Of a stretch of DNA of 35,164 bases, positions 6,539-20,076 are shown piece by piece. This DNA is from Calditrichaceae bacterium (GTDB lineage: Bacteria; Calditrichota; Calditrichia; Calditrichales; Calditrichaceae), in contig JAFGKZ010000121.1 in NCBI GenBank assembly GCA_016928315.1, forward strand, positions 1-35,164, written 5' to 3'. Below the pieces are notes generated by a model. It was not told the DNA's origin and did no database searches. It worked only from the letters and a program-made list of their open reading frames with translations. Each line of letters starts with the position of its first letter. Within the stretch, counting starts at the first letter, position 1. The position numbers and the translations under genes were made by a program.

Positions 6539-7270
6539 TTAGGCTCTGCCTGTACGAAGCCACCGTGCCCAGTCTTCCCGTTTATTCTTCTCGGCAGCCA
6601 GGGCGGCATTTTCGTAATCGTATGAGACAGCAACATGCTCTATGGTTAAATTTCTATCCAGATCGATAATACAATAACGGGCTTTCGGACTGTAATTCTC
6701 TATTTTATGGGGCATAGGCAGTTCATCATCATAGGCAGGCAGACCAACACTGCCCGGATTAATGATGAGTCTTTCCTGTGTTTCAACCAGACCCGGTTTA
6801 TGGCTGTGTCCGCAAATTATAATTTTTTGCTTTACATCGGCCAATAATATTTCTATTTGGTTATAGTCCTTGATACCCACAAAATTATCATGCAGCTGTT
6901 CCAGCAAATAACCGGAATCATTGGCCGGCGTCCCATGGCAAAGATAAATTTGATCATGAACTATTCTGCAGGCAGGCAATTCCTCAAGCCAGAGCATGGC
7001 TTTTTCAGACAATTGGTTTTTCACATATTTTAGAGTCGGGTTTATTTCCGGACTATCCGCATTTTCAATAATTATGCGATCCTGATTGCCGCAGACGCTT
7101 TCTATTTTCCAATCCGCCAACAGATGATAGGTTCCTTTCGGATCCAGAGGACCGTAAAGGCTGTCGCCCAGATCATAAATTTCTTTAATTCCCTTTTCTT
7201 TGATATCATCCAAGACGGCTCTTAATGCCCAGGCATTGCCGTGAATATCAGAAATGAATGCAATTTTCAT
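6539..7270 (-). CDS. Calcineurin-like metallophosphoesterase (YfcE/MPP family)
   Basis: The 243-residue protein has the metal-binding motifs of the superfamily in order: SDIHGN with Asp8 and His10, LGDSLYG with Asp36, GNQDR near residue 63 (the family usually has GNHD, so the His is replaced by Gln), and CGHSHKPG near residue 155. The enzyme probably hydrolyses a phosphomonoester or phosphodiester in the cytoplasm; the substrate cannot be read from sequence. There is no signal peptide. The start ATG at 7270 gives the family's typical N-terminus, MKIAFISDIHGN. The C-terminus, after about residue 200, carries an extra segment with a basic tail. The gene is convergent with the helicase, and the SemiSWEET gene lies 106 bases upstream on the same strand, so they may be separate units. 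Confidence 0.85.
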   Translation of the reverse strand: MKIAFISDIHGNAWALRAVLDDIKEKGIKEIYDLGDSLYGPLDPKGTYHLLADWKIESVCGNQDRIIIENADSPEINPTLKYVKNQLSEKAMLWLEELPACRIVHDQIYLCHGTPANDSGYLLEQLHDNFVGIKDYNQIEILLADVKQKIIICGHSHKPGLVETQERLIINPGSVGLPAYDDELPMPHKIENYSPKARYCIIDLDRNLTIEHVAVSYDYENAALAAEKNKREDWARWLRTGRA

Positions 7271-7649: not shown

Positions 7650-8110
7650 ATCGGTACCTTTATGTAAAATCGGTATTAATCATTTTTTTTAAAGAGATTG
7701 AAATTAGTTATTATTTCGATTTGTTAAAAATATTAATTACACAGACCGAACTTATCTTTTGTCCGGGACCTATTTATCAGGGTCGATGATTTAAACATAT
7801 ACCAAGCCGGTTTAAATATGCTGTAATTACAATTATAATTTTTCGGATTATTTGAAAAGTATAAAACAGGCGTAATTTTAGATATCCGGCGATTCGGTCG
7901 GACTTTTAATTTTATTGATGGAATAGGGCCAAACATGGGTATAAATCTGTGTAGTTTTTGTGTAAGCCATACCAGGGGATATTTATGATTTACCCAGCCT
8001 GATTATCGGTTTTACGTTTAGGTTATAATTTGCCTATGATTTATTGTCAATTAGCATTTTAGTATTTAAATTGCATACTACACGAATAAAAAGGATATAA
8101 CCTATAATCC

Positions 8111-8134
8111 CGATAAACGAATATTCGTTTATCG
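8111..8134. repeat. 24-base perfect palindrome
   Basis: The sequence CGATAAACGAAT followed by its exact reverse complement forms a perfect dyad centred at 8122/8123. It sits just left of the inverted repeat that begins the accessory island, about 80 bases before the membrane protein start. It could be an operator for a dimeric regulator or part of a recombination or attachment structure. No U-tract follows, which argues against a terminator. Confidence 0.6.
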
Positions 8135-8138
8135 AGAC

Positions 8139-8177
8139 GTTGTGCCCAATTAGTGAGAACGATGCAAGCATGGGCAC
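8139..8177. repeat. Inverted repeat, putative cassette boundary (left)
   Basis: GTGCCCA (8142-8148) is complementary to TGGGCAC (8171-8177) across a 22-base loop. The longer GTTGTGCCCA (8139-8148) is the exact reverse complement of TGGGCACAAC at 8953-8962, just after the stop of the enclosed gene. This flanking pair suggests a mobile unit or a cassette-type recombination boundary. It does not match a standard integron attC consensus. Confidence 0.45.
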
Positions 8178-8213
8178 TAAATTTTAATCTGAGACGTTTT
8201 TTATAAAAAAGAT

Positions 8214-8951
8214 ATGACAGTATTACCATTTAAAACCAGACAAAATATAATAGCGACTTTGCCAATATTACTGATTGGATTTGGAATTACTGGTGGTTGC
8301 TTGATTGCAGGTGGAGCCTGCTTTGAGATACCTTCATGGCGACTTTATTCTGGAATTGTGTTTGGTGGATTAATATCTCTATTTATTGGATTTGTTGGAG
8401 TTCTTGGTTTGATAAAAAAAATTCCAGATTGGAGTATAATATGGATTGCAATTTCTGTGATTGGTTTCTTGGTACTGATAAATTTTGCTTCGTCATTCGG
8501 ATTACCGTCTTTCATTGAGATTATAGTACTATTATTTTCAATCATCACTGGGCTGACTATTTTGTACTTGATTTCAAAAAAATCATGGCAAATTGCTGGA
8601 CTATTTGGAATTGGTTTGTCTACAGCTTTGTCCTTGATTTTGTTTTTTATGGCTACTAATATATCGCACGATGTGATTAAAATAGGATACTTTGATTTGT
8701 TAATTGGACTTGTAATGAGCGGATTGATATTTTTATACTTGAGAAGCACAAATCAAATTAAAGTATTGACACTTTTTGTTTTTATGATTTTAAATAGCGT
8801 TCTGATTTTCATATTTGATAATAGCATGCTAAAACTAAATCATGAGAGCCAATTGATTTATTTAATAATATTCTCAAATGGATTACTTTTTAGTGGAATT
8901 GCATTTCATTATGTGATTCGATTGATAAACAGACTGATAAGAAAGAAATAA
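8214..8951 (+). CDS. Hypothetical multi-pass membrane protein
   Basis: This 245-residue, strongly hydrophobic protein has about seven predicted membrane helices, near residues 14-34, 42-66, 73-92, 97-116, 124-145, 155-172 and 180-240 (the last stretch may be two helices). It ends in a basic tail (RLINRLIRKK). I recognise no family. Codon use is markedly more AT-rich than in genes outside the island. The gene is flanked by exact 10-base inverted repeats (8139-8148 and 8953-8962), so it looks like an acquired single-gene cassette. No adjacent gene suggests a function, and the start ATG lacks a good Shine-Dalgarno. Confidence 0.6.
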   Translation: MTVLPFKTRQNIIATLPILLIGFGITGGCLIAGGACFEIPSWRLYSGIVFGGLISLFIGFVGVLGLIKKIPDWSIIWIAISVIGFLVLINFASSFGLPSFIEIIVLLFSIITGLTILYLISKKSWQIAGLFGIGLSTALSLILFFMATNISHDVIKIGYFDLLIGLVMSGLIFLYLRSTNQIKVLTLFVFMILNSVLIFIFDNSMLKLNHESQLIYLIIFSNGLLFSGIAFHYVIRLINRLIRKK

Positions 8952-8952
8952 C

Positions 8953-9138
8953 TGGGCACAACACACAATATAGCCAATAAGGATTTCGGTTGTATGCGAA
9001 GGATTGCAGCCCGCTTCAATCCGCCGGCTGGCGGATGCAACCTGATAGAAAATCGCCCGCACCCGGCAACTTTTCATACCGCCAACCGCTGCAGGCAAGC
9101 CTGACGAACCGCAGTGCAATCAAGAAACAGATTATAAG
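8953..9138. repeat. Structured intergenic cassette-type repeat, copy A
   Basis: This 186-base spacer opens with TGGGCACAACAC and contains a CCGCCggctGGCGG hairpin near 9021-9034. It carries GCAACtTTTCATACCGCCAA at 9066-9085. The spacer at 10466-10645 has the same landmarks: ACAACAC at 10480-10486 (here 8958-8964), and the 20-base motif with one mismatch at 10582-10601. Spacing between landmarks is nearly equal (108 and 102 bases). The two spacers are diverged copies of one structured element, similar in style to integron-type cassette junctions. Confidence 0.55.
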
Positions 9139-9879
9139 ATGATCTTAGCATCAGGACAGACAAAACCAAAACAAGGAGATATTGAATCCAATTTGATTGA
9201 CCATTATAAGATGATTGATTTGGCTTCAAAAAACAATGTCGATTTGATTGTCTTTCCCGAAATGTCAATAACCGGATACGAAAGAGAAAAAGCAAGGAAT
9301 TTGGCATTTACCAAAACCGATTCAAGATTAGATAAGTTGCGCCAATTATCGGTTGATAAAAAAATGATTCTGATTGTCGGCGCACCAGTTCTGATTAATG
9401 ATAAATTATACATTGGAGCATTTGTTTTAAAACCAGACCATTCTATTTCAATTTACACGAAACAGCATCTACATTCAGGAGAAGAAAAATTTTTCGACTC
9501 CTCATTTGATAATAATCCATTGATTAACTTAAAGAATGAGAAAATTTCTATTGCAATTTGTGCTGATATTGTAAATCCGAAACATGCTGACAATGCAAAT
9601 AAGAATGGCTCCACACTTTATATTGCGAGCATTTTTTTTACGCCAAATGGGATTGCGGATGCTCATAAAACACTTTCTGATTATTCAAAACAATATAGCA
9701 TGAATGTATTAATGGCGAATTATTGCGGACAATCATGGGGTCTTGATTCTGGTGGACAGAGTGCATTTTGGGATAATAATGGTAATTTGATAGCAAACTT
9801 GGATAAAACAGATTCTGGACTATTAATCGTTGAAAACGCTAATAATAAATGGATTGGAATAACTTTAAACTATGAGTAA
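9139..9879 (+). CDS. Carbon-nitrogen hydrolase (nitrilase superfamily)
   Basis: The 246-residue protein has the nitrilase-fold catalytic triad in its usual settings: Glu41 in VFPEMSITGY, Lys108 in YTKQHLH and Cys141 in ICADIVNPKH. The enzyme should cleave a non-peptide C-N bond (amidase or carbamoylase type) in the cytoplasm; the substrate is unknown. The family often runs 260-300 residues, so this is a compact member. The start ATG at 9139 gives MILASGQTKPKQGDIESNL, matching the family's first strand and GDI motif. No Shine-Dalgarno is visible, as expected for a cassette-borne gene. It overlaps the next gene by 8 bases, suggesting translational coupling and a shared task. AT-rich codon use suggests transfer. 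Confidence 0.85.
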   Translation: MILASGQTKPKQGDIESNLIDHYKMIDLASKNNVDLIVFPEMSITGYEREKARNLAFTKTDSRLDKLRQLSVDKKMILIVGAPVLINDKLYIGAFVLKPDHSISIYTKQHLHSGEEKFFDSSFDNNPLINLKNEKISIAICADIVNPKHADNANKNGSTLYIASIFFTPNGIADAHKTLSDYSKQYSMNVLMANYCGQSWGLDSGGQSAFWDNNGNLIANLDKTDSGLLIVENANNKWIGITLNYE

Positions 9880-10465
9880 AAAAGTAATATTATTTCTTGC
9901 ACAAGGATTTGAAGAATATGAAGCTGGAGTTTTTACCGATGTTATTGGCTGGAGTCGAGTGGTGGGGACAGAACCAGTTGAAATGATTACAACGGGGCTT
10001 AGACCTGAGATAAAATGTAAATGGAATTTCAATGTTCGCCCTGAATTAGAATTTGACGAAATAAACCCAAAAGATTATGATGCATTGGCAATTCCAGGAG
10101 GATTTGAAGACGCAGGATTCTATGAAGATGCTTATGATGAACGGTTTCTTAACTTGATACGGGAGTTTGATAAAGATGAAAAGATAATCGCGGCTGTTTG
10201 TGCAGCTGCCATGCCAGTTGGAAAATCAGGTGTTTTAACAGGTAGAAAAGCAACTACCTATGATTTATGTGATGGCTTAAGGAGAAAACAACTTGCGGAT
10301 TTTGGGGCAAATGTTCAAGATAAGCATATAGTAATTGATGAGAACATTATAACATCGACTGGACCGGCAACTGGTTTAGATGTTGCATTTAAACTATTGG
10401 AAATGTTGACATCAATAAAAAATGTAGATGAAATAAAAATTCACATGAGATTTACGAATAAATGA
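9872..10465 (+). CDS. DJ-1/PfpI-family protein
   Basis: The 197-residue protein has the class I glutamine-amidotransferase-like fold of the DJ-1/PfpI family. It begins with KVILFLAQGFEEYEA (conserved acidic residue of the nucleophile site) and has the nucleophile elbow AAVCAAAMP with Cys110. A TGRKATTYDLC segment and a TSTGPATGLDVAFKLLE segment follow, which are hallmarks of the YajL/DJ-1 branch. Proposed roles in the family include glyoxalase, deglycase and chaperone activity, so no single function is safe. The ATG lies inside the end of the nitrilase gene, so both are probably made from one message. The length is normal for the family. Confidence 0.85.
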   Translation: MSKKVILFLAQGFEEYEAGVFTDVIGWSRVVGTEPVEMITTGLRPEIKCKWNFNVRPELEFDEINPKDYDALAIPGGFEDAGFYEDAYDERFLNLIREFDKDEKIIAAVCAAAMPVGKSGVLTGRKATTYDLCDGLRRKQLADFGANVQDKHIVIDENIITSTGPATGLDVAFKLLEMLTSIKNVDEIKIHMRFTNK

Positions 10466-10645
10466 CAAAAGACCAGCCTACAACACGCGGTCATAAAACA
10501 TTGCGCAGATAGTGCTATATTTGAACGAAATAACATTTAATTAAAAGCTTAGCGGGTTGATAAATTTGAGCTTCGAAATGCGCAACGTTTCATACCGCCA
10601 AACCCTTAGTGGAAATAAACCGGAACACACCATCTTTTAAAAATT
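10466..10645. repeat. Structured intergenic cassette-type repeat, copy B
   Basis: This spacer shares its start motif (ACAACAC, 10480-10486) and the 20-base GCAACgTTTCATACCGCCAA motif (10582-10601) with the spacer at 8953-9138, at nearly the same spacing. It marks the right edge of the AT-rich cassette island. The middle portion has diverged completely from copy A, as expected when structure rather than sequence is conserved. Confidence 0.55.
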
Positions 10646-12063: not shown

Positions 12064-12927
12064 TCATTCAACCGGAATATAAATTTCACTTTCGGATTCG
12101 GGATTGTAAGGTCCTAAGCATTTTTCACCATAAAATTCAAAATTAAACGATTTGGTAAGTTTATATTCTGTTTCCGGTAAAAACTGATTATAGATGTATT
12201 TGTAAGTATAGCCTACTTTATTGGCCAATCCTTTATGAATAAAACGCAAATATTTGGATTTTGGTATGATTTTAATAACAAACTGAGGCGGTACTTCATT
12301 GATATCACTTATCTCTGCCCCAATGAAAAAATACAATCCCCCTAATTCCTGATTCTCAGACCAATATTGAACCTGATAAAATCGTTCAGGTATTAAACGA
12401 CTTTTAATATTTTGCACTTCCTGCATCAGTTGATTCCATTCTATTGACAGATCCATAATTTTTGAATCATCCGCAATAAAAAATGCTATACCGGTTAATA
12501 TTATCTGCGGTAATTCGATAAGTTCAGGCGGTGTGTTTTTAGTTTTCTCTGATTGATACATGTATTCTTCTGTTATCGGATTTACTGCAGGCAAACTGGC
12601 TAATGAAATCCCATTTCTAATCTGGCTCGGACTGATGCCAAACTGTTTTTTGAATGAACGTGTAAAAGCCTCATGACTGTTAAACTGATAATCATAGGCA
12701 ATTTCAATGATCTTTCTGTCGGGATTTTTTAAATCCTTTATAGATTCAGTCAGGCGTCGCTGTTGCAAATAGGTCTTCGGGGAAAATCCAGTTACTGACT
12801 GGAACAGGCGGATAAAATGATAAAGCGAATAATAAATTGAATTAGCCATATCCAGAACGCTGATGTCGTTTTTTAAATTACTTTCTATAAATTGCACTGA
12901 TTTTAGAATGATATTTTTATTATTCAT
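12064..12927 (-). CDS. AraC-family regulator with GyrI-like effector domain
   Basis: The 287-residue protein has an N-terminal AraC DNA-binding domain (about residues 1-107), with two helix-turn-helix units. The second is marked by IIEIAYDYQFNSHEAFTRSFKKQFGISPSQIR. The C-terminal half (about 130-287) resembles the GyrI/Rob effector-binding domain and ends with FEFYGEKCLGPYNPESESEIYIPVE. This arrangement is that of Rob/SoxS-like and MarA-like multidrug or stress regulators, in which a small hydrophobic ligand is sensed by the GyrI-like fold. Targets cannot be deduced; the neighbouring minus-strand genes lie upstream of it and are separated by a repeat. Confidence 0.85.
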   Translation of the reverse strand: MNNKNIILKSVQFIESNLKNDISVLDMANSIYYSLYHFIRLFQSVTGFSPKTYLQQRRLTESIKDLKNPDRKIIEIAYDYQFNSHEAFTRSFKKQFGISPSQIRNGISLASLPAVNPITEEYMYQSEKTKNTPPELIELPQIILTGIAFFIADDSKIMDLSIEWNQLMQEVQNIKSRLIPERFYQVQYWSENQELGGLYFFIGAEISDINEVPPQFVIKIIPKSKYLRFIHKGLANKVGYTYKYIYNQFLPETEYKLTKSFNFEFYGEKCLGPYNPESESEIYIPVE

Positions 12928-13054: not shown

Positions 13055-13099
13055 ATTCGCCAACTGGCGAATTCCCCCTCCCTGATTTTCAGGGAGGGG
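13055..13099. repeat. Twin hairpin palindromic element (CCCCTCCCTGA...TCAGGGAGGGG)
   Basis: There are two adjacent perfect stems. ATTCGCCA/TGGCGAAT (13055-13062 with 13065-13072) comes first, then an 11-base stem 13075-13085 with 13089-13099 and a TTT loop. The second stem shares its CCCTCCCT/AGGGAGGG core with the element at 3845-3896. The element lies between TrmO-like and AraC genes, both on the minus strand. A further inverted GGCGGCGCC run follows at about 13111-13119. It looks like a REP-type dispersed element. Confidence 0.55.
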
Positions 13100-13200
13100 C
13101 AGGCTTGTCCGGCGGCGCCAGCCAGACGAAGGTAGGTTGTTCAATCATACTCAAATTCAAGTTTTGCATAATTGTAATTTATTCAAACTAACAAAAACCT

Positions 13201-19977: not shown

Positions 19978-20076
19978 ATACATAAATGTATATTTTTAAA
20001 ATATCTACATGCAAATCTTTTATATAGAGTTTTTATGGCTTGATTGTAACCTAAATATTTGTTTAATTTAACGCTT

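Follow-up and report, generated by a model that had tools for sequence, protein, structure and literature searches.

The window analysed here, a stretch of 35,164 nucleotides from a Calditrichaceae bacterium (assembly GCA_016928315.1, contig JAFGKZ010000121.1), contains at 7873–10611 what is, judging from sequence, very probably an integron-type array for gene capture in a worn state. Its recombinase would have been a tyrosine recombinase resembling the integron integrase IntI but lacking the insert by which IntI is defined. A preliminary description of this DNA had singled out two related spacers around a pair of genes, and had read them as structure-conserved recombination sites flanking acquired genes. 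This reading is upheld by covariation within the sites, by same-strand arrays of such sites with unrelated genes, by ends that are complementary within a cassette and not within a site, and by the finding that one of the enclosed genes is a cassette gene in another phylum. It is also refined, since the array begins one cassette earlier (gene 8214–8951), spacer 1 is a broken, chimeric site, and the recombinase family is not canonical IntI.

In the proposed mechanism, a tyrosine recombinase without the insert would once have cut at GTT and inserted circular cassettes at an attI-like site next to the gene encoding it. A cassette would run from the (G)TT of its own site to a long imperfect hairpin at its end; if integrons are a guide, the enzyme would recognise this hairpin as folded bottom-strand DNA. 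Two cassettes would be left in the window, one encoding a 245-residue protein without known family, and the other a nitrilase and a DJ-1 protein. We infer the catalysis, the folding of single-stranded DNA and the identity of the acting enzyme.

A family of structure-conserved sites

The two spacers share a 25-nucleotide repeat (9066–9090 and 10582–10606, 88% identical), and ACAACAC begins at 8958 and 10480, 108 and 102 bases upstream of this repeat, the distances originally reported. Spacer 2 forms an imperfect inverted repeat, GCGGTCATAAAACATTGCGCA / TGCGCAACGTTTCATACCGC, flanked by CCTACAAC and by a degraded CTTAGTG. The plan of the site, CTAAC, arm, centre, arm and CGTTAG, recurs in contigs from IMG/VR and in a plasmid of Persicobacter; a plasmid blastn search with spacer 2 gave one match, to the Persicobacter plasmid (84.7% over 117 bases), and the same search with spacer 1 gave none. 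An exact-pattern scan of a genome collection of 84,980 species returned 82 stretches, in records mostly titled Bacteroidota, Bacteroidetes or one of their orders, although part of these stretches are not sites (some are without a left arm or are coding sequence). One viral pattern scan mostly matched unrelated coding genes, and true sites were chosen from it by eye and later by model.

A covariance model, termed R1, was built from 42 aligned sites, one of which is spacer 2 of the window. In this alignment, 16 paired positions show strong covariation (for example columns 28 and 108, C-G in 24 sites and G-C in 16), and 98.1% of cells are paired, compared with 83.9% in shuffles. Two-sided, covarying changes number 66, against 14.9 in shuffles and at most 18 in slid controls, the signal being lost when the partner is slid by one to three columns. 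The sites are about 130 nucleotides long, with a centre that is conserved across Bacteroidota. The bottom strand is the more stable one in 122 of 148 sites, by a mean of 2.2 kcal/mol (these are related sites, not 148 independent trials), at least partly because columns 18 and 118, invariably an A/C mismatch on the top strand, are a G/T pair on the bottom strand. The conserved folded structure and strand asymmetry of attC sites are thus present across the family; site 1 of the window lacks them.

The preliminary description had proposed a covariance-model search as a check, and its outcome differs between the spacers. Spacer 2 scores 109.4 bits (E 8e-22 for the genome, the window's row being among the model's 42), which is not a chance match, whereas spacer 1 reaches just 17 bits because its halves belong to different subtypes and no longer pair. 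Total folding energy was uninformative as evidence of structure, as neither spacer out-folds dinucleotide shuffles as a whole top strand (z −0.40 and +0.59); the structure is visible in covariation rather than in total folding energy.

Variants of the site were seen in which the centre is mostly missing (L129:835–911, 77 nucleotides; L154:7561–7631, 71 nucleotides) or enlarged (L142:4236–4432, 197 nucleotides). The same sites lie on viral-classed IMG/VR contigs (L036, L042, L045, L083, L112, L113, L114 and L116–L119), which are either phage-borne cassettes or misassigned contigs. They also occur in metagenome-assembled genomes titled Desulfobulbaceae, Clostridia, Methylomirabilis, Acholeplasmataceae, Bacilli and Clostridiales (L128, L158, L169, L175, L179 and L201), through either transfer or binning error.

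Arrays and cassette ends

Among 60 genomes picked as relatives, 19 have R1 sites: 17 of the 21 from the window's own family and order (with the window's genome counted), 2 of 19 from the rest of the class and none of 20 outgroups. A search of seven Bacteroidota genomes gave 152 matches, of which those listed for contigs with a recombinase match supplied the site coordinates used below; the genomes hold 39, 6, 7, 7, 10, 73 and 10 sites, the 73 being those of Geofilum. A separate set of 173 R1 matches includes some opposite-strand echoes of the symmetric hairpin. R1 finds same-strand tandem series, such as 23 sites, all on the + strand, on a 31.3-kb Geofilum contig (G108, contig C20). The search for the same spacers beside other genes, suggested at the outset, was therefore productive, as the site is common elsewhere and flanks unrelated genes.

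If these sites bound cassettes in the manner of attC, the start of a cassette, read from GTT, is expected to pair with the left box of the site that closes this cassette, and not with the right box of that same site. For this comparison, 66 Bacteroidota cassettes were drawn from the best 150 of 188 R1 matches as adjacent same-strand site pairs, 200–4000 bp apart, in which GTT and AAC were located; the window's own two cassettes were excluded. Their own ends agree at 5.38 of the 7 bases after GTT, with six or seven agreeing in 44 of the 66, whereas the within-site control on the same cassettes gives 2.61 of 7 and shuffled ends give 2.62 (maximum 3.17 in 2000). The R'' and R' boxes therefore bound the cassette as they do with attC, the cut at GTT being placed from sequence. 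Among 55 cassettes shorter than 2.2 kb, 46 have their longest open reading frame on the cassette strand and 4 on the other strand, and 5 have none (median 985 bp). Taken together, these are tandem arrays of mostly single-gene, same-strand cassettes, as in integrons.

The window holds two such units. Cassette 1 (8139–8962) starts with the R' box GTTGTGCCCA (8139–8148, + strand), the exact reverse complement, at 10 of 10 positions, of the R'' box TGGGCACAAC at its end (8953–8962, +). Its gene (8214–8951, +) encodes 245 residues that have no Pfam match and by eye appear hydrophobic and membrane-like. The gene is followed by attC-like site 1 (8954–9096, +). Cassette 2 (9088–10484) starts with a decayed R' box, GCTGCAGGC (9088–9096, +), which agrees at 7 of 9 positions with the reverse complement of its R'' box GCCTACAAC (10476–10484, +). 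It carries a carbon-nitrogen hydrolase of the nitrilase family (9139–9879, +; PF00795) and a DJ-1/PfpI family gene (9872–10465, +; PF01965), which confirms the families first assigned to this pair; the claim that the pair is AT-rich is likewise correct, with a local GC of about 0.34–0.36 against about 0.40–0.45 over much of the window. Attached to it is attC-like site 2 (10478–10611, +), made up of the two arms given above, its outer R' decayed to CTTAGTG. No matching end CCACTAAC of a third cassette was found after site 2, up to position 20000.

These observations bear on whether the spacers could instead be repeated RNA or terminator elements, REP-like or riboswitch-like, that spread without a recombinase. 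RNA elements also yield covarying intergenic hairpins, and the site's centre shows sequence conservation as well. However, the complementarity of the cassette ends is tied to the gene unit and not to the element, orientation is fixed relative to the gene, and a recombinase gene and attI-like site adjoin the sites, all of which makes an RNA or terminator origin very improbable. A search of Rfam gave no match, even at E values up to 5.

Recombinases without the IntI insert

The IntI model TIGR02249 is exceeded at its cut-off in just 2 of 49 genomes that carry the site pattern (these 49 derive from 50 of the 82 pattern loci, chosen by hand, and do not include L142), and no canonical IntI above the cut-off was found in the window's genome. 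In the remaining genomes, proteins match the model at about 1–180 and 238–315, below the cut-off, and the unmatched stretch of the array recombinases corresponds to the IntI insert of roughly 41 residues. The spacing between the motifs KGxxDR and HxxRH is 65–66 in the 19 insert-less proteins, out of 26, that show this motif pair (64–65 in most by an alternative definition of the motifs), as against 107–109 in ten canonical IntI proteins; it is 74 in four others. By the title of a paper cited in a 2008 integron survey, this additional domain is reportedly necessary for integrase activity; the array recombinases do not have it, and the window has no full recombinase. NCBIfam NF040815 matches three insert-less proteins at 215–232 bits, around its cut-off of 220.

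In the recombinase tree, canonical IntI forms one group (100/99) among the insert-less proteins, Xer proteins are separate (100/100), and the two recombinase fragments of the window's genome fall inside the insert-less group of its clade (100/100). The root of this tree serves for drawing only, and many of its inner branches are weak. In the Bacteroidota recombinases L210, L214, L233 and L234, a small N-terminal domain seems to be repeated several times; the catalytic region of L233 seems to be doubled. At L285 (G010:C165), an insert-less recombinase gene stands back to back with a canonical IntI gene.

The insert-less recombinases are also found near the sites. Of the 12 recombinases that score above 220 bits in the seven Bacteroidota genomes, 8 have a listed site within 4 kb, which none of the 16 weaker ones has (Fisher p 1.6e-4). 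Gene and array diverge in G101, G080 and G092 (contig C16), as in ordinary integrons; in G108 and G085 the gene is directed at the array.

The window could alternatively be an ordinary cluster of attC sites lacking an integrase (CALIN), its sites served in trans by a canonical IntI with the insert, and the insert-less recombinase a bystander. CALINs are described as common and without intI in the available parts of two reports (PMC8618304, PMC9668308). Canonical IntI does occur in the window's clade, where a spacing of 107–109 was measured at eight loci. In contrast, such proteins exceed the cut-off in so few of the genomes with the site pattern, and in the window's genome not at all; no R1 site lies in the 8–19 kb around ten canonical IntI loci (L228, L229, L281, L285, L287, L290, L291 and L293–L295); and the recombinase remnant and attI-like site of the window belong to the insert-less group. 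We consider a CALIN of this kind unlikely, and retain an array with its own insert-less recombinase as the preferred explanation.

Several observations nevertheless weigh against this explanation. Among the matches listed, no R1 site lies within 4 kb for 4 of the 12 high-scoring recombinases, and 2 of the 8 that are near a site (both in G080) have a spacing of 74, outside the main group. Of the 19 genomes of the clade that carry sites, 13 show no insert-less recombinase and 10 have IntI-like split matches (classes partly assigned by match pattern only), so that canonical IntI acting in trans, or a mixed use of both enzymes, may be at work there; draft genomes with broken contigs blur these presence counts. 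Cassette ends are less distinct in the clade, at 4.17 against 2.5 for 12 cassettes. No attI motif was recognised beside Bacteroidota recombinases, and the link between enzyme and site consists of position and of one register-perfect attI case (G016, described below). Finally, the window's genome contains recombinase 3′ fragments at contig ends (G000:C210:8046–8276 and G000:C252:5–235), with no complete copy assembled; both begin with the same bases, which suggests a multi-copy gene that broke the assembly.

The attI-like site and the recombinase remnant

A search for an integron or another tyrosine recombinase had been recommended, and one was found directly upstream of cassette 1, as a remnant next to an attI-like site. 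The remnant (7873–7973, − strand) comprises the last 31 codons of an integrase gene and reads to its stop as TTQIYTHVWPYSINKIKSPTESPDI; the rest of the gene is deleted. It matches sequence elsewhere in its own genome, by tblastn (fragment L230, E 1.7e-8, 7973–7881) and by blastn (fragment at contig C210, 82% over 85 bp, 7873–7957, E 1.6e-19). The attI-like site with its leader (8034–8141, +) consists of a hairpin, CCCGATAAACG to CGTTTATCG, followed by GACGTT, with the putative crossover at GTT 8139–8141.

The stretch at about 8017–8160 aligns with the region just 5′ of the insert-less recombinase gene at four of seven clade loci, with scores of 46, 30, 32 and 29 against best values of 28, 25, 21 and 18 in 300 shuffles; at the other three loci, the upstream stretch aligns no better with the window's attI-like site than shuffles do. 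The remnant stops 60–77 bp short of the aligned block, on its left side, and remnant and attI stand in the same order as in G006, where about 740 bp separate them, which indicates that the window copy has lost the middle of the recombinase gene.

The arrangement is best preserved in G016. An attI-like site ending in GATGTTGTACGCA lies beside an insert-less recombinase gene and is followed by a 995-bp cassette with the ends GTTGTACGCA/GTTGTACGCT and then by an R1 site. The left box of this R1 site, complemented, reads GTTGTACGCT, and attI, first cassette and attC are thus in register. An attI beside the integrase gene, receiving the first cassette, is accordingly seen in G016, and the window shares its motif.

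Origin of the nitrilase cassette

The window nitrilase is 80% identical in amino acids and 79% in nucleotides to a homologue in a Bacteroidales metagenome-assembled genome (L171), whereas its best identity in 39 relatives is 36–37%. In L171 the nitrilase gene is alone in a cassette, GTTGTAGCCCA...GGGCTACAAC, with complementary ends, followed by an R1 site; the DJ-1 gene is absent from it. The similarity of the two DNAs spans the nitrilase gene and ends within about 10 bases of the gene ends. No nitrilase homologue was found in viral contigs.

This distribution makes it exceedingly unlikely that the enclosed genes are native and that the spacers arose by local duplication. Consistent with a duplication, the 23-base motif, with up to three mismatches, occurs only twice in the window's genome (3.69 Mb, 87% complete), both times here. 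To this extent the condition that was to count against recombination sites, a motif confined to two places, holds within the genome, while elsewhere the site is common; moreover, the halves of spacer 1, and spacer 2, resemble different subtypes in other phyla. For a comparison of gene order in relatives, a marker gene on the left flank (6539–7270) has a homologue in only 1 of 39, leaving too little synteny, and 16 other genes of the window gave no match in the 19 kb around that homologue.

Decay of the array

Site 1 is a non-self-pairing chimera, its left half of one subtype and its right half of another: its left half scores 38 against 17 for the right half with L239, and its right half 41 against 11 with L190. 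The complementarity of its arms is 6, compared with a median of 14 in 148 sites. The chimera probably arose when two adjacent sites underwent homologous recombination at their similar centres, an event that would have lost the DNA between them and kept the outer boxes. The crossover triplets of both attC-like sites have changed, to GCT and CTT. With the recombinase gene internally deleted, site 1 chimeric and GTT lost at both sites, the array is probably frozen.

GC-rich palindromes resembling dispersed repeats were also noted, TCCGCCGGCTGGCGGA at 9020–9035, inside the centre of site 1, and a similar element at 13060–13130. Outside any recognised cassette, the window encodes an AraC-type protein (12064–12927, −) with the Pfam domain Cass2 (integron-associated effector binding).

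Relation to known systems

The architecture described here is the known integron plan, and its insert-less variant appears to be new. In the literature searched (titles and abstract openings, excluding subscription papers and preprints), no description was found of such arrays or of insert-less integron recombinases with cassettes. The 2008 survey, in the text available, selected integrase genes by the additional domain (PMC2426708). In the accessible text of two other studies, a genome survey reports almost no integrons in Bacteroidota, with a single complete one, in Salinibacter ruber (PMC9024848), and the 11 taxon-specific attC models do not cover this phylum (PMC8352920). The closest known groups are an integron-like tyrosine recombinase subgroup (PMC8138268, in its available portion) and NF040815, entitled site-specific tyrosine recombinase/integron integrase, to which the insert-less proteins are comparable; the consulted parts of PMC8138268 and the NF040815 entry do not tie insert-less members to attC-like cassette arrays.

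We think it somewhat more probable than otherwise that a class of integrons common in Bacteroidota and occurring also in the phylum of the window, with an insert-less recombinase and its own long attC and attI, has been missed by surveys that require the insert. It would include lineages close to where canonical IntI is rooted, and may therefore represent an intermediate between Xer-like enzymes and integron integrases. Integrons are one of the main routes by which genes are captured, and genomes holding as many as 73 sites, together with cassettes shared across phyla, would alter the count for Bacteroidota. A hairpin-using recombinase without the IntI insert would also make the origin of the integron reaction testable, in asking whether the insert creates attC recognition or only refines it.

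A CALIN is defined by at least two attC sites with no integrase nearby; the window has two sites, one of them broken, and in addition a recombinase remnant. The sequence of the Vibrio cholerae repeat (VCR), the long attC type, probably differs from that of the sites described here. Like these sites, the VCR is long with a large terminal structure (available text of PMC2727003), and sites are many per genome (73 in Geofilum), but the recombinase class differs. As in integrons generally, cassettes are arranged in tandem on one strand with complementary R' and R'' ends and a putative crossover at GTT; the site is an imperfect hairpin with an unpaired spacer and bulges, of which the bottom strand folds better; and attI adjoins the recombinase gene, which is divergent in the clade. 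Unlike in integrons, the recombinase is without the insert that defines IntI (spacing 65–66 against 107–109), the sites of about 130 nucleotides have a centre conserved Bacteroidota-wide, and the recombinase gene sometimes faces the array (G108, G085). Having the architecture of an integron and a recombinase without the insert, the system is therefore a variant of the integron, rather than a strict member.
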